Below are positions 27,511-64,000 of a DNA stretch of 64,000 nt, piece by piece; position 1 is the stretch's first letter; each line of letters starts with the position of its first letter. Both the position numbers and the translations under genes were made by a program. Origin of the DNA: Rhea pennata (Eukaryota; Chordata; Aves; Rheiformes; Rheidae); assembly GCF_028389875.1 (NCBI RefSeq), contig NW_026907681.1, forward strand, positions 1,488,001 through 1,552,000, in the 5' to 3' direction. The notes under the pieces were generated by a model that saw only the letters and a program-made list of their open reading frames with translations, did no database searches and was not told where the DNA came from.

Positions 27511-28778
27511 GGATTCATCTGGCTCAACATCTCTGTGAGAAGACTTCTGGGGATAGTGGAAGGCTCCGAGACTCTCTGTCCAAGAGAGGCCATCAGCCAG
27601 GTCTGACACACTGGCCAGGTGATGCCGGGTGGCGGCTGCAAGCCATGTCCACACTGGCAATGCTCGAGGCCAGCCCAAGCTCTTCCACAGACCAGCTTGC
27701 TAATTTCAAAAGCACTTGGCCAAAACCACTGCAAACTCATCCTCTCTCTCATGCCACCCATTGAAAAAGCTAAGATCCTGCCCCAGTGCACCAGGCCATC
27801 TCCACTCTGGCCACGCAACAGGCCTGGGGCAGCTGCCACATCTGAAAGTGCCCCACCAAAGTCATGCAGTTGCCTCAAAAGACGAAAGGCTGAGAGAGTG
27901 CCTCTCCTCCGCGACAGAGCCCAGCATCAAAGGCACGTTCTTCTTCCCGCTTCTCACTTGTAGAGTCTGGCAAGGTCCAATCTGTTTCCCCTAAGCTTCG
28001 GGGCAATACAAAGCTGATCTGCCCTCTGCTACAAATAGCTGCAGCTGGCAATAATAGCCCTGGCAAACAAGGGGGTGCATGTCAGAGCCTCCCCTGACCT
28101 GATCTGAGAGTGCCCTCTCCCGCCCTGAACATCCAAAACCACAGAGGCCTGACGCTGCTTGTCAGGGCAGGCAGACCATAGCGCGCCTGCCTGGCTAAGG
28201 CCATAGGTCCCTGCCTGGTGCTACGTGCCAAGCTCCGCTGAGCCTGCCGCACAGCACTGCAAAGGTGACCTAACATGCAGTCCCAATGTGTCTGGGACGC
28301 AGCTATGGTTGCCTCATCGGGAGCCAAGGACAGTGCTGGGCCTGGAAGAGGGAACACAGGAGTCCCCATGCAGGCAGCGGGGACCACCACACACGACAGC
28401 TTCCTTTGCTGGGTCCATCTGGATGAAGGAGCAGTTGGGAAGCCCTTGCAGAAAGTCTGCTGCTCATCTACTGCTCCAAGAGGCCACCCAAAGCAAGCAA
28501 GACAAGAGAAGGGAGAAAGGAGGGTCAGAGCCTCACCTCGGCTGGGGCTGGGGGCGGGGGGGGGGAGCAGACGCGGGGGAGGGGGTGGTGGGCTCTGTAC
28601 ACCCCAACATCCCACACCTTGCTTGGTGACTGTGTCACGCCCTTGACTTTGGTGAGGACAGAGCTCTCCGGCTGTCTCCCATTCCTGGTAGCCCTTCTGA
28701 AGGATGAACACAGATGTATAGGGAAAGGACAGGAAAAGGAGCTCTCAGTGATCTCCTCGCCTCTGGGATCCAGAGTGC

Positions 28779-29509: not shown

Positions 29510-30650
29510 GTGGAACAAGTGCTCCCTAAACCATCTGTGGGCACCAGCACATGGGGCTAGGAGTCACTGGGTCCTGCTGCCATTTGAGGTATTTGAGGGC
29601 AGCAGGCAGGATGGGAAGGGCTCTGCTGGGCTACTTTGTTCACCAGGCACCTGTCATCCATCTCCTGCAGCTCTGGAAGTCCCTGGGATCTGGCACTGCA
29701 ATGCTCCAGCTGCGCCTCCTCTTTCCTATCCCTCTGCTCCACTTCCATTCACACTTCCAGGAGATCATGGTATGGGGCAATATGTGGGCAAGGAGGTAAT
29801 CTCAGAGCCACCAAAGGCAGGCAGAGTGGACAGACAACTAAGAGAGAGCTGCCACACTCGCCTTGCCCTGTACAGCAACACATGCCCACAGTCTCTGCTG
29901 TATCTCGCCCGGCCTGCAGGCACGGCCCCTCCGTTACCTGGTCCCAAGCAGCTTCTGGAGAGCATAGGCTCCAGCACAGCTGCTTTGTGGCACAGGAGAG
30001 GGTGGAGGTGGTGGGCGGGGAGTCGTGCCAGGGCAAGCACCAACACCCTGCTCTCTCTGGCTGCCAGCAGAACCTGCTAATCTGGGCTTTGCACAGCTCA
30101 GGAAAGGTGAAAGTATCCCAAAGGCAGGGATGAGATGAGGACAGCGTCAGGTCCTCAGTGCCACAGGGGAGCCGCGGCAGCCACCTCAAACAGCCCTTGC
30201 CATGCTGATCTGCACAGGCAAGCAGAGCGCCCCAGCAGGGCAGTCTCAGGAGAGCCAGCCTCCCTGGACTGAGGTTTGCACCTCATGGCTACCTTGTCCG
30301 TGCAGGGCAGGCCTTCGCGGTTGGCAGAAAGCACAGGCAGAGCTCTGCCACCCACTTCCTTCAGCAGCCAAGCATTACCCATCTCCTGCAGACGTAGAAA
30401 TCCCTGGGATCCAGCATTGCCACGCTGCAGCCGTGCTATCCACAGGTGTGCATGCCAGGAGAAGCTCTGCAAGCTGCTCAGGCAGGACTGGCTGGCTTGG
30501 GCACAAATCAATGAATAAACAGCCAGAAAGCACAGAGAGATGAACTTGTGCCAGATGGACCGAAAGGCACAAGTTATCACAGGGTTTTTCACTGGCTATT
30601 ACAGAGGAGCTGCTGGCAGGAGGCTGGATCTGGTGGCAGGATGCACACAT
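29510..30650. other. no gene recognised; small internal duplication
   Basis: This lies past the last recognisable POLE exon, where the terminal POLE exon should be but is not seen. Two stretches, about 29655-29715 and 30370-30430, share the order 'catctcctgcag', 'tccctgggatc' and 'attgc' or 'ctgca', suggesting an old local duplication. Overlapping frames on both strands are not convincing genes. Confidence 0.4.
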
Positions 30651-30652
30651 AC

Positions 30653-33600
30653 CGGGGAGGAAATGGTAAGGGCAAAATCTCCAGCACAGCTGCAGTACAT
30701 AGGCATAAGTGTCTCCTTCACACCATGACACTTCTTGCACACCTAGAGGCAAAGGGGTTTTAGCTGGGATAGCAGACAAGGCTGAGCAGCTCAGTCCTTT
30801 GACAGGGCTCTCTGGGGAGACACCACTGACATCAGGTCAATGGGTCAAGCCTCAGCCAGCCAGCAAAAGGCTGCAGCTATGTGCTGAGAAGAAGTGGAGA
30901 GCGCTCGAGCCAAACTCTCCTCATCATATCCCCACTGCATCACATCAGTCACAGAGGTAAGGTTGGGCTGCTCTGGTTCCAAGGAGCAGAGAGCAGCCTC
31001 AGCCCTCCTGCTGCAGCCTGCCACATCAAGGGCAGGCTCCTGCAGTGCAGCAGCCCAGCACTCACCAGGTCCTGCAGCAGGTAGACCATTAGCTTCTTCT
31101 GCAGCGCTTCCACCAGTGCCATTTCAATGGAATCCGAGTCATACTGGGCCTGGCAGTTGGAGCATACCCAACTGGGCAGCACTGACCCATCCTAGGGGCA
31201 GAGAGAAAGGAGATGAACACAAGTGTGACTCTTCCCAAGAGAAAGCATGGTGCAGCCTCAGCCCTCGCAGCCTAACAAGAGCATTCTGAGAGCCCCGAGT
31301 GCCAGGAAGCCATAACCAATTTCGGGAGGGGATAAAGCATCAGCCAAAGCACCAGCACACCTCAAACTGTCACAGGCAGCTAGGAAAGGGGATGAGCAGA
31401 AAATAACCTTGAAGGGAGGTTTATCGCTGTCACGGAACCTTCAAAGCAAAAGGATTGAGAGAGAGAGAAAGACAGACAACATGTGAGTTCACGACAGGCC
31501 AAGAGCACAACCATGCTAGGGCCTCTGGTGTCCCCAAGAGGGACTTCATGCATGCAGCCAGGGCAAAGGGGTTTTCCTGGGAAAGGAAGGCTGTACCTGC
31601 GAGAGGGCAGGGTCCTTGCACAGGTCCAAGTCCCTGCAAAAATTGCACTTCCTGCAGATGACTTCAGGGAGCATGTAGGAGCGGCAAGGGACCCGAAACT
31701 GGGCTTCTTCTGAGAACTCACCCACCTCAATGAGGCGCAGCAGGTCCAAGCACAGTTTGTTTACTTGGTTAGTTATTCTGGCATCCAGGGACAACACCTA
31801 CAGGAGAAAGTGTTAGGGAAGGCCACCAGCAGAGAAGACGGTCCTCACGGGGACTCACTCTGATGCGAGTGCTAGCTGGGCAAAACAAACTGATTGTAGA
31901 ATTGCAACAGATTCTTTTTTAAAAAAGAAAAAAAGAAAAAAAAACACGGCCCACCCCACTAACCTTGCAGACGTATTTGATGAACTCTAGAGCTGGGTTG
32001 TTGAGTGGCAAGTAGGAGCCAGGTAGCACTGAGAACATGTCTGAGGGCTCAGTGGCATTACAGGAACCAGCCATCTTCTTCTGGATCTTCTGAGTGATGG
32101 TGAAGAAGCTCTGCGTGAGCTCGTTGGCCACGTAATCCTGTGAGAAAGTGATCATGCTTGGAGAGGAGGAGCAGAGAGAGCTCTTGAGCCATATGGAAGC
32201 ATACGGGGACAGCAAGGTGGGCAGCTCTCTTCCTGCTGCAGGACTGGCCCAGCAGTGCTGCTCACAGCTCTCCCATGCCTAACTGTGGCTAACCGTACTC
32301 ACCAGGCATGGCTCCCGTCTCTCCCAATGCCTCCTGGGACACCTGGCTCGTGGCCCTCCTCTTGATGGGAGCGCTCCCAGGGGCATTGCACCGCAGCTCC
32401 TCCTTCATGCTGTGGTACACAGCCACAATGTAGGCTGCAGAGACACGTAAGAAAAGCTCCAGATGCAGTCCACGATGGGAGAGTGGCACAAGCGCGACTG
32501 TGCTTGTCGACTCTCCTGGGGCACCAATGACTAATCAGGAACTAGTGACCTTCTTCCCCTCTCTGAGAGAGTTCACACTGGTGCTGAAACCACCCAAACA
32601 ATGATATTTACAGACACGGAGGTGGTTCCTTCTGTACTACATCCAGCACAGTGCAGTCTTTGACTGTAAGGGGTTCTTTGGATCAACATCAGAACCTCCT
32701 CAGTAGCACAGAGAGCTTCAAGAAGCTGTGGGGAATGCTGTGCATATGGCTTGGGCAGCAGCAGGGTGGGGATAGCTCTACTCACCAGAGGTAACATTCA
32801 AAGTAGGACCAGGCGAGCAGCAGACTGCACTCACCAGACACAATCATGAGGAAGCAGTTCTGACAGGAAGCAGCCTGGGGGAGAAACTGCACGATGTTCC
32901 AACTATTCTCCAGCAAGTCCTCCACATTTGCTTCTCCATCCTCCTCCTCTTCTTCCTTATTCTCCTCTTCTTCCTCACTGTCCTCATCCAATACTTGACT
33001 CTTGCTAGTGTCCTGCTGGAATGGAGCACAAGCCATGCCCAGGCTTTGGGTTGGTGATGTCATAGCAATTCCCTATATCCAAACCAATAGCTCCCTGCTC
33101 AACTCAACCCACTGCACCCCTGTCTCTGCAGGACTGAGCACTTCCCATCTCTTACCTCCCCAGAGTGGACGCTAGGATGCACTCTTCCTTTGATACCTTC
33201 GTAATTTGCTGGATCCATCCAGAGCAGGAATCCCCAGCAGTGGCAGAAGGAAATAGTCAGAGAGTGGAAGATCTCCTTTGAGTGGATGCTGGAGGCAAGA
33301 GACTGCAGTCACACACAGTGTTGGCATCTTCCCTAGCTAATAACCTTCTCCATGGGAGGCAATGAGGAGCAGGCGATGTTAGCAAGAGAGCAGTTCACTT
33401 CTCACATCCAACCATGCTTCAGCGAATGGACTCAGTACAAAAGGCTGCAGAGCAGTCATTAGCAGAACTAAGGGCTGCAGAGGAATCATACCCACGCTTC
33501 AACTGCCTCTTGTGTCAAGACGCCTGTCTTAGCAGCCCACACATCATAGCTGGGATGCTGAGAGCTACCAGAGTATAAGAGACTGGGTAGAGCGCAACTG

Positions 33601-36248
33601 CTCACATTCTCCTGAAGGTCTCTTTAGATTGAATCATACAGATATTTTTGGAATATTGCCCCATACAGCACAGTTAAGGGACAGATCCCTACTCCGGGCA
33701 TGATGGCGCAAGAACCAGGTGACCTTGTCCGCTTTCTTCCAAAGCTAACTTTGCAAGAAATGCAGTGCTGAGGACCAAGAAGAGGCAAGAATCAGCATCC
33801 TCCTTCCACACCTTGAGCCATGTCTTAGCTCAGCCTCCAGAAGATTATCTCCAGGCCTGGCTTGCTGAGCGTACCCTTTGGCAGCCAAGTGTGCCCCACC
33901 TGTTGATGATGTACTCCATGTAGCCAATGGCATCCTCAGTTCGCCGTTTCTTGGTGCACAAGATGATCTGGTTGAAGTTGGCATAAACCACTGAAGAACC
34001 CAGACGCTTGAACTCAGCCACTAACGGTCAAGCAGAACACAGGATCTGGAGGCAGCAGGCTGGAGGAACTGCTGCTATTTAGCTGCCATTAAACAGGGAA
34101 CAGCAAACCACAGCACAACATACAATTCAGGAAGGATGTGCTGCTCCAGCACAGCCAGTAGTCAAATGCGTTGGTCTCACCATCTAAGGGAGCTCCAACC
34201 ACAGGATGGCAGGCACTCCAACAAAAGTTGGACCAACTATGCATCTGGAAGTTACTGGGCCTTTCCAGAGGTTGTGCCACAGGTGCTCAGAAAGACACAG
34301 CTATGGGTGCCAATGGAGTACCACCCATGGCTATGTCCGTCTGCTCCACGCACAGGGCATGGCAAGCTCCATTTTCACTTACTGTAGGAAAAGCTTCTTC
34401 ATCACGTTGTGCAGAGGGCGATGCAAAGCTGGGTTATAAAGCAGTGAGGAAGGAGAGCAGAGCCAGCGGTAAAAACGAATCACCTGGTTCTCTGCACAGA
34501 TGTTGGGATACTGTGTGATCTCCTTCACCCAGCTCACCACCATGCTCTTCAGAATCCTGCCACGGAGCAGAGATGAGCATCACACCAGGCACATGAGCCC
34601 TTCCTCCTTTCACACACTGACATGTTTTCAGATAATGCTAGAGCAAGTGGCAACTCTGCCAAAGCAGAGATGCACTAGCTCTCAGCACATAAGCCACAGG
34701 GCAATTATGTGCCTCTATGACCTTGTGGAGATGAAAAGAGAAACAGGAAAGGGCAAACTCTTCAAAAGCATCTCCTCACATATGCTGGCTGAGCCACTAG
34801 GGAGAGCTGATCCTCAAGCCTAAAAGGGAGGATGTCAACAGACAAAGCTGGGCTTCGCCTCCTTCCCTCTGCCAAGCCAGCTGCCTATTGTGCTTCAAGG
34901 CACCCCACAAACCACATGCTAGTAAGAATCTGGAGAGGCTAAGCCAGCCAGTCAGCTGGGAAGGAGGACCCTGCCCTCTCGCAGGTACAGCCTGGGAAGC
35001 AGGACCCTGAGGGCATCAGGCAGGATGAAACAGATGCTCCATCTCATGCTGACCCTTACAGACATACCTGAAGGGGTTGGAGCACAGGGCACTCTCATCA
35101 TAGCTGGCTGGAATGTTGGCACCTTGGTTCCCTGTCACCATGTCTTCTAGAGATGCCTGCTGGATCACATCAAAACTGATACTCACGCTGGGACCTTCTT
35201 CCATGTCATTGATGTGATGGGACTGTAACACTGTGTTTACAGCCAAGCTCTGAATATCCGGCTCCAGACACACTGTGAACAAACACAACCTGTCAACAGG
35301 CAAGCAGGGCAGAGAACCAGCAAGGACACAATCCCCTCTCCAGGTATGATGAATGCACCCACTTGCCAGGACTTTCCACAAGTTGTAAGAGCTCTTTACA
35401 GGTGTTGCTGCATCTACCGAGTGCAACATCAAGATATTCATATCAGGAAATGGTGAAAGCCTGTATGCTACTGCAGCAGCATGGGAAACTGTGCTGCTCT
35501 CCAGACTGCCACACACCTTGTGTTACAGGCCTTAAAGGACACTTTTGGCACATGGCCAGACCTCTCCCCTCTACGGCCATGATGCTATGTACGGACGGCC
35601 CCATTCACTGCACAGTTAAACAGCAGAGCACCTTCCAACAGAACTTGGATCTACTTCCGCTCCAGGGGCCACCAGCTTTTTCTGGAAACTGCAGCAGAGG
35701 TGCTCAGAAGAACTATCAGTCAGCTTGTTTTGCATCACAGAAAGATTCATCCTAGGGACCACCAGAAGTGATCTTCTGAATGCTGCTATGAGAGGCCACA
35801 AACTAGAAAATAATCTGTACTTAAATGCCTACATGCATTTTTCTATTGCATACAGGACTCTATCCCCAGGAGATGCCAATTGCATACATCCTGTCCAGAT
35901 CATTGCTCAACTTCTGAAGCTGTCAGAAACTGCAGAACTGCTCAGGTACTCTTCTGCCACTGCAGCCATCCTTCTCCTGAGCTCATAGAAGAGCACTTGG
36001 CTCGGCTCCCACTCAGTGCTATCTTACCTGTGGAGTAGCAGCCAGGGTTGTTTATCTCCACTGAGGCTCTCTCGTCAAACTCCATAACTAAACGGTTGTC
36101 ATCAGCCTCTTTACCCCCCAGCTCTGGGCGGGCCGTGGGTGAGAGCCACGCCAAATGGTTGTGGCGATGGAGGTGGTGGGAGAAAAACAGGTCAGAACCA
36201 AAGGTAGACATGTCATCAGGGAGATTCCCAATGGGGATGTGGTAATAT
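30653..36248 (-). pseudogene. POLE exon block 3: C-terminal region and zinc fingers
   Basis: Exons: 36248-36028, 35272-35068, 34556-34383, 34024-33899, 33288-33156, 33015-32835, 32434-32303, 32157-31964, 31797-31597, 31191-31066, 30742-30653. Recognisable signatures are [38 protein letters not shown], the acidic run at 33015-32835, [15 protein letters not shown], the cysteine cluster [13 protein letters not shown] and the second cluster CKKCHGVKE with [10 protein letters not shown]. No stop lies inside these exons, so this block is better kept than the catalytic half, although two acceptors are damaged (before 34024 and before 32157). The final exon, with about 35 residues in human, was not found below 30653. 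Confidence 0.85.
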
Positions 36249-36429
36249 CTGAGGAAAGGAAAGAGGTACAGTCATCGGGGTAAACACATCAACAGAAGAA
36301 CTGTGCCAGCATCATAGTTGCTTGTCCCAACAAGCGCAAGAGCACAGAAGGTGACAGCATGTGGCCTAATCTTGGCCTCAGGCTCCTGCAGTCTCCCTTT
36401 CCCACCCAACCAGGAACAAAGTAACCTCC

Positions 36430-46269
<9,840 letters not shown>

Positions 46270-48045
46270 CTGCAAGGATACAGGAATGATACTGAGACCT
46301 CTTCTAGGCACGACACCCATCCTCGCACACCGCCCAGGGAAGGGGTGCAGGGGGTGACAGCTTCTGCAAGATTATCCATGCTCCAGCGTAACTTCGGGGA
46401 TATTTGAAAACGGGCTCACTACTTAACAGAGCATGTCTCAGTATGGGTAGAGAGCAGTTCATCTCATCTGAAGGGCAGATGGCTGAAACAGGTCAGCTGA
46501 ATGGCATCTTGAAATGCCCCTTCGTTCACTGATCAGCTCCGATGTGAGCAGGCAGATAATGTTGGCCAATTAGCTGGCCTGACCTCCATAGCCAACTTGA
46601 GCTCTCTAGAACTGAAGGACGGTGGCTTTCTGCTAAGAACTCTACAACTCACAAAAGTCTACACCACTGGCACTAGGGCAAAACACAAAGCAGAGAAGAG
46701 ATGGTGGCTGCTCCCCGGCCCTTGGAGTTCTCCTGCAAAGGAGGCTATGTAGGGCAGCTAACAAGAAGAGATGATTGCATGTATGTTCCACGGGGCAACA
46801 CTTATGAGGCGGGGCTGACCCAGTAGTCAGCTGCTCACACATCTCACTGCTCTAAGGGGCCAAGGAGTTAGATTTAAGATCCTTCTAAATTCACAGTGCA
46901 CGTTCCCTTAAGATCATTTACGAGATTAAGGCCACTAAAATAAGCAGCGCTGAGGTGTGGTGTATCACACAGCAGAGAGAGAATTTGCCTCTAAAACTTA
47001 CAATCTAGACAGTAGCACCAACCAGAAACAGGTAAAAGAGGCCAAATGAAGAGGGCAAAAGAAGCTTGGCTTGAGTGGGAGAAGGACAAAGATATAATCC
47101 TGACGAGACAAAAACAGAGTCATCTCTGCCAACAACTACTGGCCCAAAGAAAACCAACCCTCCCCCCCCCCCAAAAAAAAACCCTTCAACCAACCAATAA
47201 ACAAACCCACACAACAATGAACCACTCTCCTTGCTGTAACACTGTCTTTACCCAATAGCCAGCCTGAGGTCATGAAGAGCAACTTCTCCAACCCTTCCCA
47301 CCTAAACTCTAAGCAGGTTCATGCACTCAAGCCATGAATTAGATATCAAAGTTTTATAATAAGTATTGCTATTGGGTATCCCCCAAAAGAACAGAGGATG
47401 GTAATTCCAGTTGGAGGGTTATTCTCTACTGCCATGTTCTCCAGAAAGAAGAGCATGATTGCATTACCATTTTAAAGCCTCCGTTGCAACACCTTGATTG
47501 TGTCCTTACCATTTTAAAGCAGCAAGGGATGTCACTGTGAAAAAACTCAGATTACAGAGCTTCCACGTGGCCTCCTACATACATCTCCGAGTCCAGCACG
47601 TGGCCATCATCTGTAAGTTTGTTGAACTCCTGCTCCTGCTTGTTGCGGAAGATGATGTTGGCGGGATAGGCCTGAACCATCAGCAATGCCTCACACAGTG
47701 TCCTAGAAACTTTTCTTAACACCTGTAAAAAGACAGACATCAAAAACTGGACTTAGAAAGAAGAGCTGTAAAGGGTGCTGCTGGAATTAGGCTGGCCTTA
47801 TCACTGCATCATTGAACTTAAATGTTTGATTTGGTGCCCAACATGATGCGTTTATTCAGGTAGTATTGAAGCCCAAGGCAAGGAGCACAGTAAGGAAACA
47901 AAACCAACTCCTTCACTTAGGCTACCCATAACTGGTCTATGGAAAAACAGCTATGACTGCTGCACTGCAGAAAGGAAGCGCATTTGGAGACTACTTTCCC
48001 TCCTTTCCTTGGGAAAAACTATCCAAACAGTAGAAATTAGTTCTA

Positions 48046-48219
<174 letters not shown>

Positions 48220-49380
48220 TCAGGTGGCCAGAGTCTGTTGAGGAGAAAGACAAATCAATCCCAGTCACATTTAATACAGCAGTTAACACGTACAACGGGA
48301 AACAAGGAAAGGTTGAAATCAGCAGGAAGATGCAAAAGGTATATTTCTGCATACAAACATCCCAGCGTGTAAAGAGTTATCAGTCGGCTTAAGACGACAT
48401 TCTGCTTTAACCTAAATTACATAAGCCAGCTCCAAATTAGCAGAAATGGGGAAGATGAGCTCACTGCCACATATCTGCACAGATGCCACTCCGGAGTGGT
48501 CAGGAGGCCACTCTTGGCCTACAGAGATCTCCAGGGCTTCAGCAGAAACCTCATTAAGGTGTCTCCTGGACTCTAGCAAACTACTGCTCCGTTGCAATGC
48601 CCCGAGTACTACCATTTTGCAGAAGTGTAAATAACACAAATATACAGTGCAACACCAATGCCAGAAACACATCAAAGAAATTCTATTCTTCCCTAAGCTT
48701 AAATTCTTTCAGGTGTCTGAAATTCAGCAAGATACACTGACAACTTCTCAAAGACACTGCATTAACTTAAAGGATTTCACAAAGCTCTAACTCAAAGGTT
48801 CACTAATATTGCAGATGCCCAGAGATACAGCACAGGGTGGGAATACCTGAGGCTCCTCTGTAGCCATCCGGCACATCTCTTCAGGGTCCAGCTCCACTGC
48901 ATCATAACCCAGTTTTGCTTTCGCTGCTGCTTTCAGGTTGTGACTTCCCACTGGCAGGTAACTCTCTCTCTTCACCCACCTAGACAGAATAATGAAAATG
49001 CCAGTCGACGAAGAGACAGCCCTGCACTTCAGAAAGGGCTGCTACGTACACGTACAAAAAAGATCTTGATTACTGTAACAGGGAAAGGTGAGAGCAGAAC
49101 ATCCAAGTGCAGTGGAATAAGAAGCTGCACAGCTTTAGACAGTCTGCATATCTACCCATGCTCTTAAATCCTGACTCGTACAAATTCTGCCATTCAGATC
49201 ATTTCTATTGCTCAGATTTTTCTCAACCCTCATACTTCAGAGACTTCAGAGATAAACATTTAAACACAGGAGGAGGTATCAGCAGGACTGTAAAGAGAGG
49301 CAGTTGTTTTCCAGAGTCTGGACACTGGTCCAATGTGAAAAAACATTCAAGTCACAACTGCCAAGACAGACAGCCCTCTC

Positions 49381-49382
<2 letters not shown>

Positions 49383-49414
<32 letters not shown>
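49383..49414. repeat. CA dinucleotide repeat
   Basis: About 15 CA units in a POLE intron. Ordinary microsatellite. Confidence 0.95.
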
Positions 49415-49419
<5 letters not shown>

Positions 49420-51654
49420 CTTTTCCTCTCTGTGCGAGGCAGGCTGTTGGGTTAGAAAATGGCCCTGTGCCCACTACAACAGTTTGGTCTTATCCTGTCC
49501 TTTTACCTGCTATCCAGGACAGTTCTCAAGCCCCCAGTGACAGCCACCAGCAGACTGTATAAACAGAGTTAGTCATTCAGGCTAGTGTGGATGAGATGTA
49601 ACTTCTGTAGCTAATGGCACACAACGGAGTACCGAGTAGAAGCAGCACAACCAAAGATGGGGGTGCTAGTCCTTTCCTAATAAGATGTAACCCATGATAG
49701 CAGTGCACAGAGATGGAAAAGGGACAGTATTCAAATACATCAACTGTAGGCATTTTATACAAATTTAACAGATAAAGATGCAGTTATACGGTACAGACGC
49801 AGCATTCGGTACCTCAGACAATCCATGTGGATGCACTGCGGGGCTTTGTACTCTCCCTGGCTGCCCTTCTGAAATCCAATCTCCTGATACATATTAATTC
49901 CATGAGCTGCTGCTCTTGCTTCCACAAAAGGCCTGAGGAGAGAGACAATGCAGAAGAGAAGAAACAAAGCAGTCCCTTTCCTCCACCCCATCCCCACCCC
50001 AAGGGTTTCAGGATTGCTTTCTTGTAAGCTACTTAATGAGGAATTTTTCTTGTGAAGTCTCCTTTGCTCCAGACCTTACCCGTGAGAGCTGGCCACAGGG
50101 AAAACTCCCTGTAGGGCAGAGCTACTGCAAGAAGGAAGCTGCTTGCTCACATCCTATACCAGGAGGCAGAACATTATGATCGAGTTTCCCTCGCTCCCCA
50201 AAGGCTTGGCTGCTCTGGTCTCCCTATTGTTCTGCAGTTCTCTTTTGACACTTTGCCTGTTCTCCAGTTACTGAGGTCATCAGTGTACAAACATTGCCAA
50301 ATCAACAACAATCTAGAAGTAGCTCAGCAATCCCAGGACCAACTGATGAGACTCTATAGAAGTTCGTATTTCAAAGCCAATAAACATAGCTCTGCTCAGG
50401 GAAAAAAAAAAAAAGTTCTGAATTCCACCTCCCCCTCTTCGACAGTCCTCTGCAGGCTGGCAATCCAAGACTCAGCCCAGCACTCCAGATAAAGAGCACA
50501 TAATCAGGATGTAAACAGGTTCCCAAACTGGTTGGATAGTCTGTGTAGATAAGAACACACGTGGCCGCTATGTGACCTCCAGACAAAGGACATACAGGCT
50601 GGTATCCGATCGCACCCCATGGCCTAGACAACATTTCCTTTTAGAAACCAGGTCAGTTTTCATTCCTGATCTTACCAGTCAAAGAAGTCTCCATCGTATG
50701 TGACAATGATAGTAGGTTTGGTCTCCTGGACATGTTCAAACCACCTCTGGATTAAACGAGCCTAGTATGCAACAGAGGATTAAAAAAAAAAAAACCCAAA
50801 ACAAAAAACATCTCCCCCACAAACACAAACACTCAGCAAATTCACCTCCTGCAGGCAGGCACTGGATATAATACAATTGATGCAGTCCTTCCCCTCTGCT
50901 CTTGACCTAGCTAGAGCCCGATCTGCCTCATCATCACACCACGAAATGAAAGCATCACCAGCACTGTGACTGTCCGCTGAGCTCCCCAAAGATACAATCT
51001 ATTGCATGATAAGCTCTCTTTGGCCTACAAGAGACCAAGGCAGATAAAAAGCAGCCTGATTTCCCAAGTAGAACCTACTTACCTCATCTGGTTCATTAGA
51101 CACAGAATGGACCCTCACACTCCGGCTTGGGAGCAAATTCAAAGCCCTCAATATCCTCACAGACAATCTCCTTGTTTATGATCAGATAGCCCTAGAGAGT
51201 TGACAAAGGAAGAGTTACTGAGGACTCAGATCCCTGCTACACCAGGGACACGTTCCTGAACAACCTAACTAAAGGATGAAATAGATATTTCATCCCTAAA
51301 GGATGAAATAGTCTTCCATCGATGAGATAATCCTTGCACAGCTTGATAGGTAGAGCTTTTGTGAAGTGGGAACGACTCTTTGGAGGTCACCTTCTGAACA
51401 ATTGCTTACAATCAACTAAGGGTGCCAAAAGGGAGACAACTTAAGGACTATACTCTCCAAATTACTACTGCCCCTCAAAGGGGCACCAGTAGCCTTAGCT
51501 GGGTTCTCCAACATACAAAACGAGGAAATCCTTATGCATCATTCAGACTAGACTTCAATTTTATTTCCACAGACATTACATATAGACCAAGCAACTAGCA
51601 ACAAAGCAAGCCAGGGACCAGACCGCCAAAGGTGACATGCTCGTTTGCTGTCTA

Positions 51655-51837
<183 letters not shown>

Positions 51838-53111
51838 TCAGCTTTAGAATATGATTTAACGAGCAGTTCTCATTAGATTAACAACTAATTTACCTAAGTA
51901 GGTTTATGCACATCTCAGACCCAGCAGGCTTGACTGTAGGAGACAAGGTAGCAACAGTGGTACCCACTGATAACCAAACAGCAAAATTCATTAACAGGAG
52001 AGAACGGAATAACAAAAGCTTCTCTTTAATGCAACAACCCCCTTCGAGAAAGAGAGTCATCAGGATTGACAGCACGTGAGGAAACATTGCGCAGGCAAAA
52101 AACACTTATTACCTCTATGCCTTTATAATAAAGGTTTCTTATGGCACTGGATTTATAAAGCATAGCAACGAGTTTAAGAATAGTTGGGCACCCCAGGAAT
52201 CACCTGGAACAAATGATGTACACCTCTCAGTTGGGCAGGAAGTGCTCACTTCACTAGATTCCTCTTCCTTTGAAATGGTTCAACTGAAATCAGACATCAG
52301 GTGTAGGAAACCAAAGAGAAGATTGGAATTCTCATTTGTACTTTTTAGTCTGTGTGACTAGGGGAATCCTAAGAAGCCCATGGGCCAACCGTCCTAAGGA
52401 GACCTCTTTCCTTGACAGCATAGACGTATAGACATCGCTCGCCTGGTCTCGCTCACTGTTTTTCCTCACAGCAGGAGAGATCTCTTTCCGCATCTTCACC
52501 AAGTCCTCCACCACGTGGAAGGATAACTTAATGTAGTTCCGCTTAAGACCCACCAAGTGATTTGGCTACAAAGCAACAAGACAGTGCCAGCTAAGGGTGG
52601 AAAAGAGTAATGAGGGAAAGGGAAGACTGCTAACAGTAAGAAACCGTTGGGAAGGCAAATTATACTGGCACACGTAGAAGAACTGGCCAAAGAAGAGGTA
52701 GTAATTGGATGGAAAGACTCGGAGTGAGAAGAGATGCTAGCAAGCACGTAAGCCAGCAAAGAACATGTGAGCTATGCCAGTTCACACCAAAGGCCATCTT
52801 GTCTTGTTGTCTGTTTCCAAGCGCAATCACCAGTACACACCCAAGAAAGAGTAAATGTATAGTATTTCCCTCTGCCACAACACTCTTAATCTCCAACCAT
52901 TTCTAGCTCAGGAAGTTTCTTGAGCATCCTGTGAAAAAGACTATGTGCTGGAGCAGAACATATATTTTATTTACTATTACTATAATAAGCAATTACTATC
53001 AATAAGCAATAATTAGCCTATTCATGATATGCAATGCAAACAGTGCTTGAAGATTAAAGGTAAGCATACTGCTTCCCTTTACTGCTTAGCCCCTTTCTAC
53101 TCCACTTGAGC

Positions 53112-53139
53112 TCGAAAGAAAGAAAGAAAGAAAGAAAGA
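53112..53139. repeat. GAAA tetranucleotide repeat
   Basis: Six to seven GAAA units in the intron between POLE exons 5 and 6. Confidence 0.95.
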
Positions 53140-53989
53140 TTAGGGTTATTCAATAGTACAGCAGGCAGAGGAATACTGACCAGATCCAAATCTTCTTTGG
53201 GGACAGTTTCTAGCTCTGAAATGTTCCCTTGAAACTTCTTGGAGAGGAAGGATGACACTTCTTGTTCACAGCCCTGCAAAGAAACTGGAGAATGAGCAAC
53301 AAAGCCAGACACTTCTCCAGAGGAGAAGACAGGCTCACAAGAGGTTCTGGTACTAGTGTCCTAGAAGATGGTTGGTCACAAGGCCTCTCAGCTTACTGGG
53401 GGACCCTTCAATCAAACCTGCCCTTGTCTCTGGGACCTCGGCCACTAGTTTACTCCAGACCCCACTTGCCAGTGCGCAGCTTCCAAGTCCATACTCGCCT
53501 TCTGGGGAGCCATGTAGAAATACGGCTTATAGGGCAGGGCCACCCAGGAGAAATCAAAACCGGTGAACATTGCGCGACCCCGCAGCCAAGGAGAGAAACC
53601 AACCCAATGGTTCCCAACGGAAGCAACGGGCACCGCGCTGCACTTGCTGCGCGTTGCTGGCATTTGTGCGCCACATACACATCCCTGCATCTCTGCAGCA
53701 CCCACCTTGGCCCCCAAGGGTCCCAGGTGGACCCAGCGTAGGGCAGACAGCGCTGCTGCCTTGTGGGTGATGCCTGGGGCCCAGAACAGCCAAACCGGTG
53801 GGGGCAGGCAGGACGCCCAGCCCGGGCACCAGCGCTGCGCTGGAGGAACGGGATGCACCTCGAAGCGGCTCCCATCCTCCGGGATGAAGTAGTCCACAGC
53901 GCTCACCAGCCGCCGGTCCTCGCCCAGCACCTCCGTCTGCACATGCACATGGCCTGTTACGACACACGACCCCCCCCGCCCCCTCCCAC

Positions 53990-54294
53990 CCCAGTCCTAC
54001 TGGGTGCCTGTCAGTGACACCTCCCCTGCCCCAGTCCTACTGGGTGTCTATTGGTGACACCTCCCCTCACACCCAGGTCCTACCGGGTGCCTGTCGGTGA
54101 CATCTCCCCCCCCTCCCGCCCAGGTCCTACCAGGTGCCTGTCGGTGACATCTCCCCCTCTCGTCGGTGACATTCGCCCCCCGTCCTACAAGGTGCATGTC
54201 GGTGACCCCCCCATCGTTGTCCCCCCTAGTCCTACCAGGTGCCTGTGGGTGACACCCCCCACCGGTGACATCCCCCCCCCTGGCCCAGTCCTAC
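53990..54294. repeat. minisatellite built from the POLE exon 2 splice-donor region
   Basis: About six imperfect units of roughly 40-47 bases each hold a version of 'gtcctaccgggtgcctgtcg' followed by 'gtgacatctcccc'. The first half equals the reverse of the POLE exon 2 end plus donor (CACCCG then GTAGGAC). The array fills most of the intron between exons 2 and 3, next to the real donor at 54294. Confidence 0.85.
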
Positions 54295-55330
54295 CGGGTG
54301 CATGTTGATGAGCCAGCCCGTGCGCTCGCCACGCTCCGTGGGCCGCTCGAAGCCGAACAGTGTGTCCAGCCGCTCCGTGCGCTGCGAGCGCTCCAGGCGC
54401 TTGAGGGAGGACAGCGAGGAGCCATCCTCCCTGCAGGACACCGCGCCGCCAGCCACCGCCCAGTCCCCCACGCGACCCACCCCCCCCCCCCCACCTCCCG
54501 CTGCCGCCTGGCCCCAGTGCTCACTGCCCCCCCCAGCCGCCGCCGCCGCCGCCGCCGCCGCCCGGCTCCGCGCCGCCCCGCAGCACCATCCCGCCGCGGC
54601 CGGAGCAGCCCCGCGCGCTGCCCCCACCTCCCGCGAGCGGGAAGCCTGCCAGCCCCGCCTCCCCAGGGAGAGCACCAATCAGAGAGCGGCACCGCAGCCA
54701 ATGGTCGCTCTCTTCCTCGACCTCTGCCCCGCAGCAGGGCGGCTGCGCTGGTCACGCCCCTCGCGGCACCTTCCCGGGCAGGCCCCGCCCCCGCCCCGGC
54801 TGCCGCTGCCGCGCACGCGCCTGCGCGGCGGCGCCCGGCGCGGCCCGACCCGGCCCGGCCCGGCGCGGCCTGTCGTGGGGCGGCGGCGCTGCGCGGGAAG
54901 CGGCTGCTGCTCCCGAAGCGGCGCCGTCACGGGGGCAGTTGCGGACCGGCGCCGCCATCTTGGCCGCCTCTCCAGGTAGCCCTCCGGCTGCGAGGGAGCT
55001 GGGAGCCGGCTGCGCCCCCGAGGAGCCCTGGCCGGCCTTGAGGCGCGTGCCGGGCTCCTTGGGCCGTGCGAGTCTTCCTGCCTGGAGGCCGGACGGGCTG
55101 CGGGGAGCCGTCGGGGGCCGAGGCGCAGCGTGCGAGCTCCGTCCTTGCTGCGCTTTGGCGGGGCGGGCTGAAGCCCTGGCGGGCTGCGCGGAGCAGGCCT
55201 GGCATGGGCTCGGCGAGCCTGGCCCGCCCCGTCTCGCTGAGGTGCCGCCCGGCCGTTCAGGGCGCGGGAGGGAGCTGGCCGCTGAAGCTGGCTGGCTTGC
55301 AGTGAAACAACAAGCAGCACTGCGGTCAGT
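54230..55330. promoter_or_regulatory. CpG island and probable POLE promoter
   Basis: Dense CpG, long CCG/GGC runs and no TATA box surround the POLE start codon. In human the POLE promoter is shared head-to-head with PXMP2; I do not recognise PXMP2 exons on the plus strand here. A plus-strand donor-like 'tccaggtagcc' lies near 54972, so a divergent non-coding first exon is possible. CpG density in a decayed gene suggests the region is still unmethylated in the germ line or the decay is recent (inference). Confidence 0.7.
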
Positions 55331-55334
55331 CTGT

Positions 55335-56777
55335 GGAGTCACTGCCTGAGAGAAGAAAAGAGGGGCAGGTGCTCTGCAGGGACCCTAAAAAAAATCTCTC
55401 AGACGTCGGAAAACTGCACTGTGGAGGTAGTGCACAGGAAGCGCTTTCTGCACGGCTGTACGAACCGTGTGTTTGGGGTTTTAAGCATATGCAGTGTGGA
55501 AATCGGGAGGCTCCTGGGAAGTTTCTTTCTGGGCCCCAGCCAGCTGCGAGCCGGCACTGCCAGCTTGAGCAGCCCGGATTGCGTTGTCCTTCCGTGGTGC
55601 TCGGGCGGTGTTGGGAGCACGTAGGAAGCACCGCTGCCTTTTGCCCAGGCTGTGCTCTGTCAGCGGCCCCTTGGGCACAGCCCCCGCTACTAAAGCAAGC
55701 CTCTTCTGTGTTGGCCGCTGCTAAGGCTCTTGTAAATAAACTAGGGGGAGCACACTGTTTTTTTGAATTTCCTTGTTTGTATTCAGTTGAACTTCTTGAA
55801 CTGGATCCTTTCTAATGACCCAATACTAGTATTATTTTAATAAGAGTGTAAATTACCAAAGTTGTTGTTTTTTTCCAGATATGAATGTCATCATTATAAG
55901 ATAGATGGGATGTACAGGGTTTGTGCTTCCTCATCATAATTAAATAAGCAAATATTAAAGAAAAATGTGGGGAGAAAACAGGTGGTTAACATAAATCTGA
56001 TTTTAACCAAAACTATGACCATTGAGTTGCTGAGGACTTCTCAGTGGGGGATGTTTTGGAAGGAAGGGCACTTTCTTTCTCTCTCCCCAAACTGTACTGC
56101 CAGCCATCTGTTGATAATTATTGTCCAGTCTCTGCTGAGAACTTGTGATAGTTAATATTTCCTCACCGCTTGAACAAATAAGCGATAATCACTGCAAGGT
56201 ACTTGACCACAGGAGTAGAAAGATGAATAGCGTGGAAGAGTCAGTGTATACCTTGGTTTGTGAAAACAGCTCAGTTTTCTATAAGTGATTATGACAAATT
56301 CAAATTCTTGAGGACTTGGAGAATGAGTACATTGAGTTACATAGTATCTCTGGAAAAAGTAAGTTAAAAGATCAAAATTATCAAAAATCTTAAAAATTCT
56401 CCATTCCTGTTTGTTTCGTATTATTTTTAATTTACATTATCCTTTCTCAGAGGAAATATTGAATGTTTATAGCTAAGCTGGGGATAGCTCACTTCATGGC
56501 AATGTTTATTCTCTTAACCTGTCAAATCTTTATAGTTTTATTGAGCCCTATGTAACAGGAGAGTAGAAATCATTCACTCTGGTTTAAAAATGGCCTCTGA
56601 AACTGTCCAAAATCATTGTTGTGATTTTGTTTTTCTTTTTTCAGTTATGTTAATAATACATACTAATAGGCTATGCCTTTAGTTCAAAGACTTGTAGGTT
56701 TACAAATAACAGCTCTTTCAACTTTGTAATACTCTTGATGTGATAGCTTCTAAGTTTGTCTAAGAGTGGTCTGGGAA

Positions 56778-57162: not shown

Positions 57163-58640
57163 TGAACTGGGCAGCGCTGGTGTGCCCCGGTGGGCATGAG
57201 AAGCGTCTCAGGGCTCCTGGGACCTCAGAGGCCTGCCCTGAGGTGAGGTGGGCCTTGGGAAGAGGAATGGAGAGGATGGCAGGTTACAGAGATGTGTGGA
57301 GCTGCCAGCAGAGACCCCAGGACAGACAGTGCGGAGCTGCACGTGGACGTGATGTTGGTGCCTGTAGCTCTCCTCTGCCGCTACCAGTTTGTGGCAGGGA
57401 TCCCCCTGCCTGCCTTGGCTTGGGCACTGTTTGGGGGCTGCTGAGTGAGGGATCACGGGAGGGGAGATGTGTGGAGACTGAGCGGAGCTTGCTGGCGGAT
57501 GCAGAGACGTGGGGAATCCTAGTGAGCACAGCTGCCCCTGGCTCAGTTCCCATGCAAGGAAATGGAGAAGAGGGTTGACTGTCTACTCCGGAGGACACAC
57601 CAAGGAAAGCCATGCTAGAGTAGGGCCACCGCAGGCACGCTTAACAGCTGCTTACCCCAGGCAGCTTGCAAGGGCTGGCACCCATGCAGAGATGGGGAAG
57701 CACATGGGGTGCCCCGTCCCCTCTGCAGCCACAGCGTAGGACTACCAGCTGCATGTCCTGTTCTCATCATGTCCCCCATGACCCTGCAGGGGCTAACAGT
57801 TTGCAGTGCTGTATGCAGCTGTGACCATGACTGCACCCCTGGCGACATGGACATGTTGGGCCACAGAGAGCTGGGCATGTGCAGGGACAAGTGATCTGTG
57901 CAGCACTGCGCACTGGGCAGGATCCCATTTGCCAGGAAGTTCAGCGTTGTGTGTTTGTCCTCACAGGGCAGAAGACAGGGCGCTGCGTGCCCAGTGCTGG
58001 CGGCACCGAGAAGAGCTCTGAAATGCTGGCTTGGTGTGCAGCAGAGGAAGCGAGTGTCGGGTACGGGGCCCAAAGATGGGTCGTGGCACTGGGGAGGAGA
58101 GTCCTCTGCTAGGATGGAACAGGCACCAAAAGGCTGGCCCATCTTCGAGGTCCCGTTGGACACCAGGGGATGCTCTGGGCGGGACACCTCTGAGGGTGCT
58201 CTTGAGAGGTTTGGCCCCTTCAGCAACAGGCCATGGCCTAGGGAGGGTGTGCCATGGCCCTTGATGCCACTTCCCAATGGCAGCATGGGAGCGGACTCTT
58301 GCCCTTTCTGCAGTGACCTGGGACAAGCCTGGGGCAGCGTGGGGCGCGTTGACACAGAGCAAGGGGCCCGCAGGCATCCTGGGCCATGGCCCGCACACGG
58401 CCCCACAGCAGGAAGCGCAGCTGCCCTGGGGTGCTGGGCACAGGGGCAGCAGCAGGGCTGGCAGCCCCAGGGCCTTGTGCCACGCCGACGCCGGGCCGGC
58501 AGACGGCTGGCAGGGAGGCTGCAGCGCGGCCCCAGGGCCCCCATGTCGCAGCACTGTGACCCGGCAGCGCAGTCACAACGCTCGCGGCACGAGCAGGGCT
58601 ATAAGGCGCCCGCGCCCCTGCCGCTCTGCCAGGCTCCGCA
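57163..58640 (+). pseudogene. P2RX2 partial copy C (exons 4 and 5)
   Basis: Exon 4 (57790-57865) reads VCSAVCSCDHDC then GDMDMLGH; exon 5 (57967-58060) reads TGRCVPSAGGTEKSSEM then LAWCAAEEASVG. The first corresponds to the P2RX2 segment with the residues GELDMLGN, the second to TGRCVPYYQGPSKTCEV. The acceptors are intact; the donor after exon 4 is GA, while that after exon 5 is GTACGG. Exon 5 has Ser where P2X channels have a conserved ectodomain Cys, as in copy B and unlike copy A. Sequence upstream (57163-57789) matches 26353-25786 reversed; a possible exon 3 ending QGNGEE is weak. From 58270 it departs from copy B, but 58560-58630 again matches 25510-25435 of copy A. No exon 6 is seen. 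Confidence 0.78.
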
Positions 58641-59984: not shown

Positions 59985-60100
59985 GCTTTTTTTTCTTCCT
60001 TTCTTTTTTTCTTCCTTTCTTTTTTTCTTCCTTTCTTTTTTTCTTCCTTTCTTTTTTTCTTCCTTTCTTTTTTTTTTTTTTTCTTTTCTTTTTTTTTTTT
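59985..60100 (+). repeat. 16-bp pyrimidine tandem repeat
   Basis: The unit 'cttcctttcttttttt' repeats with exact 16-base spacing about five times, then grades into T runs. Confidence 0.9.
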
Positions 60101-60163
60101 CCCTTAAATTTTGCCATGCTCTGGAGCCCCTAAAGTGGCTTCAGTTTGAGAGAGAGAGGAAAG

Positions 60164-60762
60164 GAGCTGGGCAGCGCTGGTGTGCCCCGGTGGGCGTGAG
60201 AAGCGTCCCAGGGCTGGCCGGGAGGCAGGCCTTGCTCACATGCGCAGGGAACAGCCGATCGCCAGCTTTGGGGTCAGGAAGGAATTTTCCCCCGGCACAG
60301 ATTGGCAGCAGTGCCTGGGGGTTTTTCGCCTTCCTCTGCAGCACTGAGCACGGCCCACTCCCAGGGCTCCTCGGAGCCCTTTCAGGCCACTGATTGCCTG
60401 CTCTTGCAGCACCAAGACACCAGCTGTGCCCTGCAGCTCTCTCGCTCTCTGCCCTGGGGCAAGCTCAGGCACTTCCATGCATTCCATATGCTTGGGCTGT
60501 TCTGCCTTGTGCAAAACAATGTGCGTTTGCAAAGGCTCCGGGCTTGATGCTGCATCAGGAAGCAGCTGCCGCTTGTCAGCTCTCTCTGCATGTAATAAAA
60601 GTGCAATGCTTGTAACCTCTGCTGGCTCTGCTGTGTGTGTCGTGTGAGTCGTGGCTGTGGCCTGAGAGCTTTGTCGTGCAGCTGTGCTGTCAGGAAGCGC
60701 AGGTACCCTGCTGCCTGCAGGGTCTGTTGTGGGGCTTGCAGGGTTGCTCTGCACCGCAGGGA
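60164..60762. other. unassigned, begins with a duplicated 52-base block
   Basis: The first 52 bases ('agctgggcagcgctggtgtg' and onward) closely match 57166-57217, the left edge of P2RX2 copy C. The rest, including a block near 60270-60340 ('caggaaggaattttccccc'), resembles an interspersed repeat I have seen in sauropsid DNA but cannot name. No gene is recognised. Confidence 0.4.
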
Positions 60763-61123
60763 GTTTAGCCCAACTCCGCCCCGGTTGCATAACGGGCTAT
60801 GACACTGCGCGCGTGTGCAGATTTATTTTGGGGGCCACATTGACTTTGGGGTTCGCTATTTCATTACTCTTCAACTTCAGACCTTCTGGTTGACTGTTTC
60901 TCACAGTTATTCTGTGGCTGGAAGCCACCAAATCTCTATGTAACCAGCAGCTGCTCTTTCTCACAGATTTCCAGTTACTTATTCGTATTCTGCTTAACAC
61001 AGCGGTAGTGTTCTAGACACCCAAAAGTTACAGCAGGGACCGTTCCCACCAAGTATCATGTAGTATGGATACAAAAGTTGCAACACAGACCGTTCCCACC
61101 AAGTATCCCGTAGTACAGATGCA
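60763..61123 (-). mobile_element. LTR-like element, copy 3 (truncated)
   Basis: The reverse complement matches the first ~360 bases of the elements at 14421 and 28779, starting TGCATCTGTACTACGG. Its 3' half is missing. It lies antisense to and directly upstream of P2RX2 copy B exon 2, exactly as copy 2 lies against copy A. Confidence 0.65.
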
Positions 61124-62889
61124 GCACTCTGGGTCCCAGAGGCGAGGAGATCACTGATAGTGCCTTTTCCTGTCGTCCTTCAGAAGGGCTACCAGGAATG
61201 GGAGACAAGCCTGCAGAGCTCTGTCCTCACCAAAGTCAAGGGCGTGACACAGTCACCAAGCAAGGTGTGCGATGTTGCGGTGTACATAGCCCACAACCAC
61301 CACCCCCCCGGCCTCCGCCCTCCCCCCCCACACACACAGCCGAGGTGAGGCTCCGACCCGCCTTTCTCCCTTCTCTTCTCTTGTCTTGCTTGCTTTGGGT
61401 GGCCTCTTGGAGCAGTAGATGAGCAGCAGACTTTCTGCAAGGGCTTCCCAACTGCTCCTTCATCCAGATGGACCCAGCAAAGGAAGCTGTCGTGTGTGGT
61501 GGTCCCCGCTGCCTGCATGGGGACTCCTGTGTTCCCTCCTCCAGGCCCAGCACTGTCCTTGGCTCCCGATGAGGCAACCATAGCTGCGTCCCAGACACAT
61601 TGGGACTGCATGTTAGGTCACCTTTGCAGTGCTGTGCGGCAGGCTCAGCGGAGCTTGGGGAGCTTGGCACGTCGCACCGGGCAGGGCCCTGTGGCCTTAG
61701 CCAGGCAGGTGCGCCATGCTCTGCCTGCCCTGACAAGCAGCGTCAGGCCTCTGTGGTTTTGGATGTTCAGGGCGGGAGAGGGCACTCTCAGATCAGGTCA
61801 GGGGAGGCTCTGACATCCACGTGATGTTGGTGCCTGTAGCTCTCCTCTGCCGCTACCAGTTTGTGGCAGGGATCCCCCTGCCTGCCTTGGCTTGGGCACT
61901 GTTTGCGGGCTGCTGAGTGAGGGATCACGGGAGGGGAGATGTGTGGAGACTGAGCGGAGCTTGCTGGCGGATGCAGAGACGTGGGGAATCCTAGTGAGCA
62001 CAGCTGCCCCTGGCTCAGTTCCCATGCAAGGAAATGGAGAAGAGGGTTGACTGTCTACTCCGGAGGACACACCAAGGAAAGCCATGCTGGAGTAGGGCCA
62101 CCGCAGGCACGCTTAACGGCTGCTTACCCCAGGCAGCTTGCAAGGGCTGGCACCTATGCAGAGATGGGGAAGCACATGGGGTGCCCCGTCCCCTCTGCAG
62201 CCACAGCGTAGGACTACCAGGTGCATGTCCTGTTCTCATCATGTCCCCCATGACCCTGCAGGGGCTAACAGTTTGCAGTGCTGTATGCAGCTGCGACCAT
62301 GACTGCACCCCTGGCGACATGGACATGTTGGGCCACAGAGAGCTGGGCATGTGCAGGGACAAGTGATCTGTGCAGCACTGCACACTGGGCAGGACCCCAT
62401 TTGCCAGGAAGTTCAGCGTTGTGTGTTTGTCCTCACAGGGCAGAAGACAGGGCGCTGCGTGCCCAGTGCTGGCGGCACCGAGAAGAGCTCTGAAATGCTG
62501 GCTTGGTGTGCAGCAGAGGAAGCGAGTGTCGGGTACGGGCCCCAAAGATGGGTTGTGGCACTGGGGAGGAGAGTCCTCTGCTAGGATGGAACAGGCACCA
62601 AAAGGCTGGCCCATCTTTGAGGTCCCGTTGGACACCAGGGGATGCTCTGGGCGGGACACCTCTGAGGGTGCTCTTGAAGGTTTGGCCCCTTCAGCAACAG
62701 GCCATGGCCTAGGGAGGCGGTGCCATGGCACAGGGATGGCCTTGCACAGGCCATGCCAACAGGGACCATTTTGCTCCCAAAGCCATAGTACTTAGGTCTT
62801 TCCACAGTGAGTCCCTGGCGAAGATGGCACCACAGTTCCCCATCCTTATCAAGAGGAACATCCACTTCCCCTGCTTCGGCTTCTCCAAG
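61124..62889 (+). pseudogene. P2RX2 partial copy B (exons 2, 4, 5 and 6)
   Basis: This is the fullest P2RX2 copy. Exon 2 (about 61160-61290) reads LQKGYQEWET and SSVLTKVKGVTQSPSKVCDV without the frameshift of copy A, but its donor end is eroded into CCCC runs. Exon 4 is 62262-62337 (donor GA), exon 5 is 62439-62532 (donor GTACGG) and exon 6 is 62808-62889, reading GESLAKMAPQFPILIKRNIH then FPCFGFSK, close to the P2X stretch MAPNFTILIKNSIHYPKF. Phases of exons 4, 5 and 6 join correctly. After exon 6 the expected GT donor is absent at the expected place (GATGTCC follows). Exons 1, 3 and 7 onward are not recognised. It is not expected to encode a channel. Confidence 0.82.
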
Positions 62890-62894
62890 GATGT

Positions 62895-63390
62895 CCATGT
62901 GGAAGAGATCAATGTGGGGCCTAGGGATGGAGCAAGTAGACCAGTGGGTACCCAGGCTGCCATGTGTGTACAGGGTATAGAACAAAGTGGAGAGCAATAT
63001 AGGTGATGCTAAGCAGCTGAGTGCAGGTCAGGCCCTGCTGCTGGGACCAGGACAGCCTTGCTGCAGCAGCAGTGCTTTGTAGTCAGGTCTTTGGCATAGT
63101 GGGGAGAAGGGGGCCACCCTGGCCCTGCACTTGCATGTGTGTTGTCTGAGTGTGTGTGTGGAGTGCAGCCAGATACCTTCCTGAAAGTGCAATGGTGGAT
63201 AGCACAGCCATTTCCCGTAACAATTAGGTACCAGAGGAATGAGTGTTCACTGACAGCAGGGAGATGTGGTTGAAATACGTGGACAAGCCTGAAGGATGGA
63301 GAGGCAGGAGTGGAGCTGTGCAGGAGCAGTGCCATTTGGCAGCTGGAGGAGATGCCGGCTTTTCACAGGGGATCCCTGTTCCTAAGTTGC
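62895..63390. other. no further P2RX2 exon recognised
   Basis: Exon 7 of P2RX2 would be expected near here. I find no plus-strand match. A TG-rich stretch lies near 63135-63165. Confidence 0.4.
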
Positions 63391-63392
63391 TC

Positions 63393-64000
63393 CCAGAATG
63401 ACGGAGGTTGGAAGCACCTCTGGAGATTGCCTAGTTCAACAGCTGCTTAAAGCGGGGTCACCTACAACAGGTTGCTCTAGGCCAAGCCAACTCGGGTTTT
63501 TGGTATCTCCGAGGATAGAGACTCTCTAACCTCTCTGGGCAACCTGGTGCAGTGTTTGATCACCCTCACTGTAAAAAAAATGTTTGTTCTTAAGTTCAGA
63601 CACAATTACTGTATTTCAGTTTATGCCCATTGCCTCTCATATGATCACGGGGCACCACTGAGAAGAGCCTGGCTCCATCTTCTTTACTCTTACCCATCAG
63701 GTATTTGTACACATTGATAAGATGCCCCTGAGCCTTCTCTTCTCCAGACTTAACAGTCCCATTTCTCTCAGCCTCTCCTTACATGAGAGATGCTTCTAGT
63801 CCCTTCATCATCATTGCTGGACTTGCTCCAGTAGGTCCATGTCTTTCTTGTACTGGTGAGACCACACCCACACACAGCACTCCAGCTGTGGCCTCACCAG
63901 TGCTGAGGAGAGGGCAGTAATCACCTCCCTCAACCTGCTGGGACAGGATGTTTTTTTGGTGCTCAGCTGCTGTCTCTGTGATACGGAGTTCTCAACCCTT
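63393..64000 (-). mobile_element. CR1 LINE, continues past the window edge
   Basis: The plus strand shows CR1 in reverse order, from the terminal 'cagaatgacggaggttgg' through 'cacctctggagattgcctag', 'ttatgcccattgcctctc', 'ccttctcttctccagact' and 'actccagctgtggcctcacc'. At least 600 bases of the 3' region are present and the element continues beyond the right end. Confidence 0.9.

Follow-up and report, generated by a model that had tools for sequence, protein, structure and literature searches.

An unprocessed, decayed copy of POLE in Rhea pennata, very probably one of about 55 or more in the genome

Gene content of the window

We analyzed a 64,000-nucleotide stretch of the Rhea pennata genome (the window, C144:1488001-1552000) on a contig of 2,437,241 bases; the assembly that we searched comprises 1.269 Gb in 180 contigs. 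The minus strand of the window carries, at 30451..55797, a duplicated segment that aligns with C17:15259103-15289573 in collinear blocks of 88.6-94.3% identity (blastn). It comprises POLE up to but not including its last exon, together with ~1.3 kb that precede the first aligned coding block. POLE is an essential gene that is normally present as a single copy. In a translated alignment, the decayed POLE coding region occupies 30650..54480 (minus strand) and retains 37 of 47 coding blocks, which follow the gene order from 54480 down to 30650 with introns between them; judged by eye, the splice flanks are largely kept. Human POLE chains were the best matches in a PDB search with the concatenated window exons (E = 0 over 823 aa and 6.5e-297 over 550 aa). 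Since introns are present, a processed pseudogene was rejected, and the homology to C17 across both exons and introns bears out an earlier reading made from the letters alone (the sequence-only reading), which took the locus for an unprocessed POLE copy on this strand. Its description of a full-length layout holds in part: 10 of the 47 C17 coding blocks are lost, so the copy is not complete, whereas ~39 exons is a fair count because one of the retained blocks covers more than a single exon.

The GC-rich 5' end and upstream region (54001..55797, minus strand), inherited from the parent gene, are 94.0% identical to C17:15287848-15289573. The GC content at 54001-55000 is 0.751, in agreement with the CpG-rich start that had been proposed.

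Lesions of the window copy and the apparently intact gene on C17

Five in-frame stops interrupt the coding region at exactly the positions given by the sequence-only reading. These are, on the minus strand, TGA at residue 458 (48220..48222; TAT in C17), TAA at residue 548 (47552..47554; GAA in C17), TAG at residue 1018 (38704..38706; TAC in C17) and TGA at residues 1027 (37867..37869; TCA in C17) and 1252 (36472..36474; CGA in C17). The two frameshifts that it claimed proved, in comparison with C17, to be true deletions of 2 bp (51097..51098, minus strand) and 7 bp (43868..43869, minus strand), and two more coding indels of 3 bp each, at 53888 and 32939, preserve the reading frame. This comparison covers human residues up to 2177; the two kept blocks beyond that point contain no stop in the translated alignment. 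Each lesion lies inside an exon aligned to C17, and exon mis-calls were rejected on that ground.

The 10 lost coding blocks fall in three places, namely human residues 193-267, ~1266-1650 and the last exon. An 829-bp deletion (C17:15284487-15285316; junction at 51882..51883, minus strand) removed two blocks (aa 193-267), and a 4.3-kb deletion (C17:15265086-15269404; junction at 36440..36446, minus strand) removed seven. At the 3' breakpoint (30449..30453) homology to C17 stops in the last intron, and the last exon is absent. The window also contains ~365 bases (42182-42547) without a C17 counterpart, which were either inserted into the copy or lost from C17.

An apparently intact POLE is encoded on the minus strand at C17:15258902-15288259, with sense codons at all five sites of the window stops. 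Its 47 aligned blocks cover human residues 6-2284, with aa 1937-1950, the start codon and the full splice model outside this coverage, and no stop or frameshift was seen within its exons; one block reads across an intron and meets a stop there, in C17 and the window alike. The blocks include residues 193-267, 1266-1650 and the last exon, all of which the window copy has lost. Thus, the search of the assembly for a second POLE locus that the sequence-only reading had proposed found one, as expected of a duplicated copy with a working gene elsewhere, and we rejected the possibility that the window holds the only POLE of the genome. The nine matches listed for a profile search with PF00136 are all on C1 or C3, with C17 and C144 unrepresented; this model therefore fails to recognise POLE in its separate exons, and a lack of matches in such searches proves little.

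Copy number and dispersal

To count POLE copies, we combined two genome searches, one with the window exons (56 matches; 55 of 687 candidates scored) and one with PF08490 (106 matches; 104 of 218 scored), and clustered the resulting 162 matches by contig and strand with gaps of ≤16 kb. Among the scored candidates there are at least 54 clusters, comprising the C17 gene and 53 decayed clusters on 12 other contigs: 18 on C144, nine on C18, seven on C8, six on C149, four on C147, two each on C138 and C146, and one each on C139, C145, C162, C21 and C3. Two further copies with large deletions (C and D, below) were seen only in the fetched DNA of the C144 tract and bring the total to ~55, a lower bound with respect to unscored candidates that could be inflated by duplicated haplotypes or by insertions of >16 kb splitting a copy. 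DNA identity applies to C17 and the C144 tract, where blocks of >1 kb at ≥90% identity occur in several places, as in a segmental duplication, and copies on other contigs are known from translated exon matches. Judging from the stops listed in the exon search, these other copies are probably dead as well.

The contigs carrying copies include C3 (130 Mb) and C8 (38.6 Mb). On C8 the copies are within the final 1.6 Mb, on C18 within the initial 0.47 Mb and on C138 within the final 0.13 Mb; C139 has its copy close to the start and C145 close to the end, and others are on contigs of <2.5 Mb. Overall, 51 of the 53 decayed clusters are near contig ends or on small contigs, the exceptions being inside C21 and 3 Mb into C3. 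Two adjacent TTAGGG units were not found in the end pieces of C144 or in the 284-kb tract.

Relationships among the copies

Positions 60036..64000 of the window are the start of an adjacent ~41-kb tandem repeat whose units carry further POLE pseudogenes. The repeat spans C144:1548036-1643379, with a 40.9-kb unit and 99.3% identity over 54.5 kb at a 40.9-kb offset. Four other copies were compared with the window copy: A (C144:1556561-1584769) and B (C144:1597482-1625691), which are ~41 and ~82 kb away from it, C (C144:1638421-1651135) and D (C144:1378026-1384708). The upstream breakpoint (C17:15289573) is common to the window copy, A and B, and the 829-bp deletion is common to the window copy, A, B and C, which are all the fetched copies that reach that point. 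A 1.6-kb deletion (C17:15262230-15263795) is common to A, B, C and D and absent from the window copy, all four continue beyond the 3' breakpoint at which the window copy is cut off before the last exon, and its 4.3-kb deletion was not seen with the same ends in any of them. From these shared and unshared breakpoints and deletions, we infer that the window copy is an early branch among the copies.

Point lesions are also partly shared. The stops at residues 548, 1018 and 1027 are common to the window copy, A and B, that at residue 458 is present in B and absent from A, and that at residue 1252 is listed for neither. When a stop anywhere in the exon is counted, TGA occurs in 16 of the 18 matches listed for the residue-1027 exon (not in C17 or C147:1239934), TAG in 26 of the 27 listed for the exon ending near residue 1018 (not in C147:1240951) and TAA in six of the 10 listed for the residue-548 exon. 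Since part of the lesions is common to other copies, the gene was broken before amplification or early in it. The copy at C147:1236170-1249619 has the TAA of the residue-548 exon and lacks the TGA and TAG of most listed copies, whereas on C8, C21 and C146 there are copies in which the TGA is present and the TAA is missing. These conflicts mean that the history is not a simple tree and point to exchange between copies or repeated mutation.

The window copy differs from C17 by ~5% (1069/21096), from A by 3.5% (733/21096) and from B by 3.3%, while A and B differ by 0.3% (82/25902). Assuming a neutral rate of ~2e-9 per site per year, these differences would place the first duplication at roughly 13 million years ago and give the tandem units an age of <1 million years.

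Neutral evolution of the window copy

The window copy evolves neutrally, and protein constraint is absent. Its differences from C17 are spread evenly over the three codon positions (73/1690, 75/1690 and 79/1689), with 227 of 5069 coding and 947 of 17158 noncoding positions changed. At 129 residues human and C17 agree against the window copy, compared with seven at which human and the window copy agree against C17. For example, the motif LELDTDGIW of human and C17, which we take to be catalytic motif C of POLE, reads LELDRDGIW in the window copy. Against the intact gene, the comparison suggested by the sequence-only reading, dN/dS is 0.70 (0.54-0.93), whereas the values for the three dead copies lie at 0.86-0.96 with intervals that include 1, namely 0.92 (0.64-1.43) to A, 0.86 (0.60-1.30) to B and 0.96 (0.57-2.02) to C. 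Methylation-driven decay was rejected as a special cause, as CpG to TpG/CpA changes are symmetrical over the whole gene (104 vs 94 in the window copy). By its sequence, the window copy would thus have no protein function, and the C17 gene would supply POLE.

Alternative explanations

The sequence-only reading had suggested a sex-limited or repeat-rich chromosome as the setting of this copy. The second part stands, as the C144 tract is rich in repeats and, judged by eye, contains retroviral reading frames. W chromosomes are likewise rich in repeats and retroviral sequence, and a POLE copy decaying there without recombination would fit this setting. CHD1 and NIPBL are on both Z and W in birds. 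The Nipped-B_C (NIPBL) profile matched C61 only (four of four matches, six candidates), and CHD1-like_C matched C61, C10 and C20 (three matches, five candidates; 35.5 bits for C20). Given the Z/W placement of both genes, C61 is the Z chromosome. Neither of these two markers matches C144, in an assembly that may lack W, and no W copy of NIPBL was seen in it with the Nipped-B_C profile. POLE copies also occur on C3, C8, C18 and C21. On these grounds W linkage was rejected, and we regard it as very improbable. Still less probable is a copy on a songbird germline-restricted chromosome that was included in the assembly. In the accessible text of PMC10172847, such chromosomes are described as carrying copied A-chromosome genes, part of which have decayed; however, the copies here are also on several large contigs, and the word POLE does not occur in the main text of that source as accessible.

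A collapsed, mis-joined or error-rich version of a single true POLE might be suspected from the pairs of copies with equal scores on C144 and on C145/C147, which could mean that part of the count consists of duplicated haplotypes. However, divergence of 4.5-5.5% and kilobase-sized deletions are unlike base-calling errors. Assembly error is an unlikely source of the lesions because A and B, at 3.5 and 3.3% divergence, have three of the stops in common with the window copy (four for B), and an artefact as the whole explanation is extremely improbable. There is slightly more room, although still very little, for the idea that RNA or a truncated protein from some of the copies has a function, for instance as a source of non-coding or small RNA: 94.0% identity is retained in the GC-rich upstream region, but dN/dS is near 1 between dead copies and change is equal at all codon positions. 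Overall, we put the probability that the window holds an unprocessed, non-functional POLE copy, one of ~55 or more in the genome, at about 0.94.

Origin and significance

At this locus, a pseudogene sits in a segmental duplication that has been amplified. Such duplications are of a kind already known; the surprise, striking in a bird, lies in how many copies of an essential gene there are. A single large duplication of POLE and its upstream region out of the C17 locus most probably founded the family, the direction from C17 to the others being suggested by the intactness of the C17 copy, which is for this reason taken as the parent. The copy died before amplification or early in it; ectopic exchange or end-joining within repeat-rich DNA at chromosome ends or around centromeres would then have carried it to other chromosomes, and unequal crossing-over would have expanded it locally, probably with some sequence exchange among copies. 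A bolder proposal, which we consider doubtful, is that an early-dead POLE forms the core of a duplication block that is mobile and still growing, colonises heterochromatin and the ends of chromosomes, is homogenised by exchange between copies and is possibly transcribed from its inherited promoter.

The array of the ~41-kb unit, which is 99.3% alike and contains gene sequence, resembles large-unit tandem arrays (macrosatellites); the matches here, however, are also dispersed over 12 contigs. Like other unprocessed (duplicated) pseudogenes, the window copy has introns, a promoter region, multiple lesions and an intact parent elsewhere, but here there are ~55 or more copies of one essential gene. 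The family also resembles the interchromosomal segmental duplications near chromosome ends that the accessible text of PMC13431229 describes for birds and mammals: it shows tandem expansion, and its blocks, tens of kb in size, occur on several contigs and often close to contig ends. In the same text, that survey of 117 vertebrates reports a tendency of birds towards interchromosomal duplication near the ends of chromosomes, which it attributes to end-joining; however, among the groups surveyed, birds have the lowest content of duplications in their genomes, and its main text as accessible does not contain POLE. No bird POLE pseudogene family is named in the titles and abstract openings listed from open-licence papers (for one query, 10 of 60,860), and PMC12954441, in its accessible part, concerns gene loss on avian dot chromosomes and has no bearing on POLE copies.

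Because bird genomes are poor in segmental duplications (PMC13431229, accessible text), tens of dead copies of a replication gene may mark a young duplication hotspot, in a region that is probably absent from older assemblies. A clock for this hotspot is provided by the lesions, some of them shared between copies and some private. Left unmasked, the copies would give false variants and copy numbers at POLE.

Other features of the window and contig

C144 begins with a 336-bp satellite (29.8 copies, 97%; C144:1-10000). A tandem array at C144:1390766-1450452 has an 11.8-kb unit, 99.6-99.8% alike, with retroviral-looking frames inside (by eye), and a 5.8-kb tandem unit is also present near the window. 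Non-POLE repeats recur within the window as shared peptide strings, one pair at 57618-58598 and 62018-62791 and another at 61192-61810 and 28085-28744. A perfect 84-bp tandem duplication (19873-20039; 2.0 copies, 100%) lies in a LINE-like frame, and the frame just upstream (19191-19811) has an Exo_endo_phos_2 match below the cut-off (E 9.3e-05). A search of the window against Rfam gave no match at the gathering threshold, and when a human PXMP2 probe was run against the window, the tract and the C17 stretch, no hit was convincing as an exon (best E 0.036).

Maestro HEAT-like genes often form a multi-copy family in birds. A fragment of such a gene is indicated on the minus strand of the window at 9203-10204 (HEAT_Maestro, E 5.7e-10), and a weak HEAT_EZ match, below the cut-off (E 0.044), is at 7077-7676 on the same strand. 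Elsewhere on the contig, a 309-aa open frame at C144:1463053-1463979 (plus strand) looks, by eye, like a secreted leucine-rich repeat protein.
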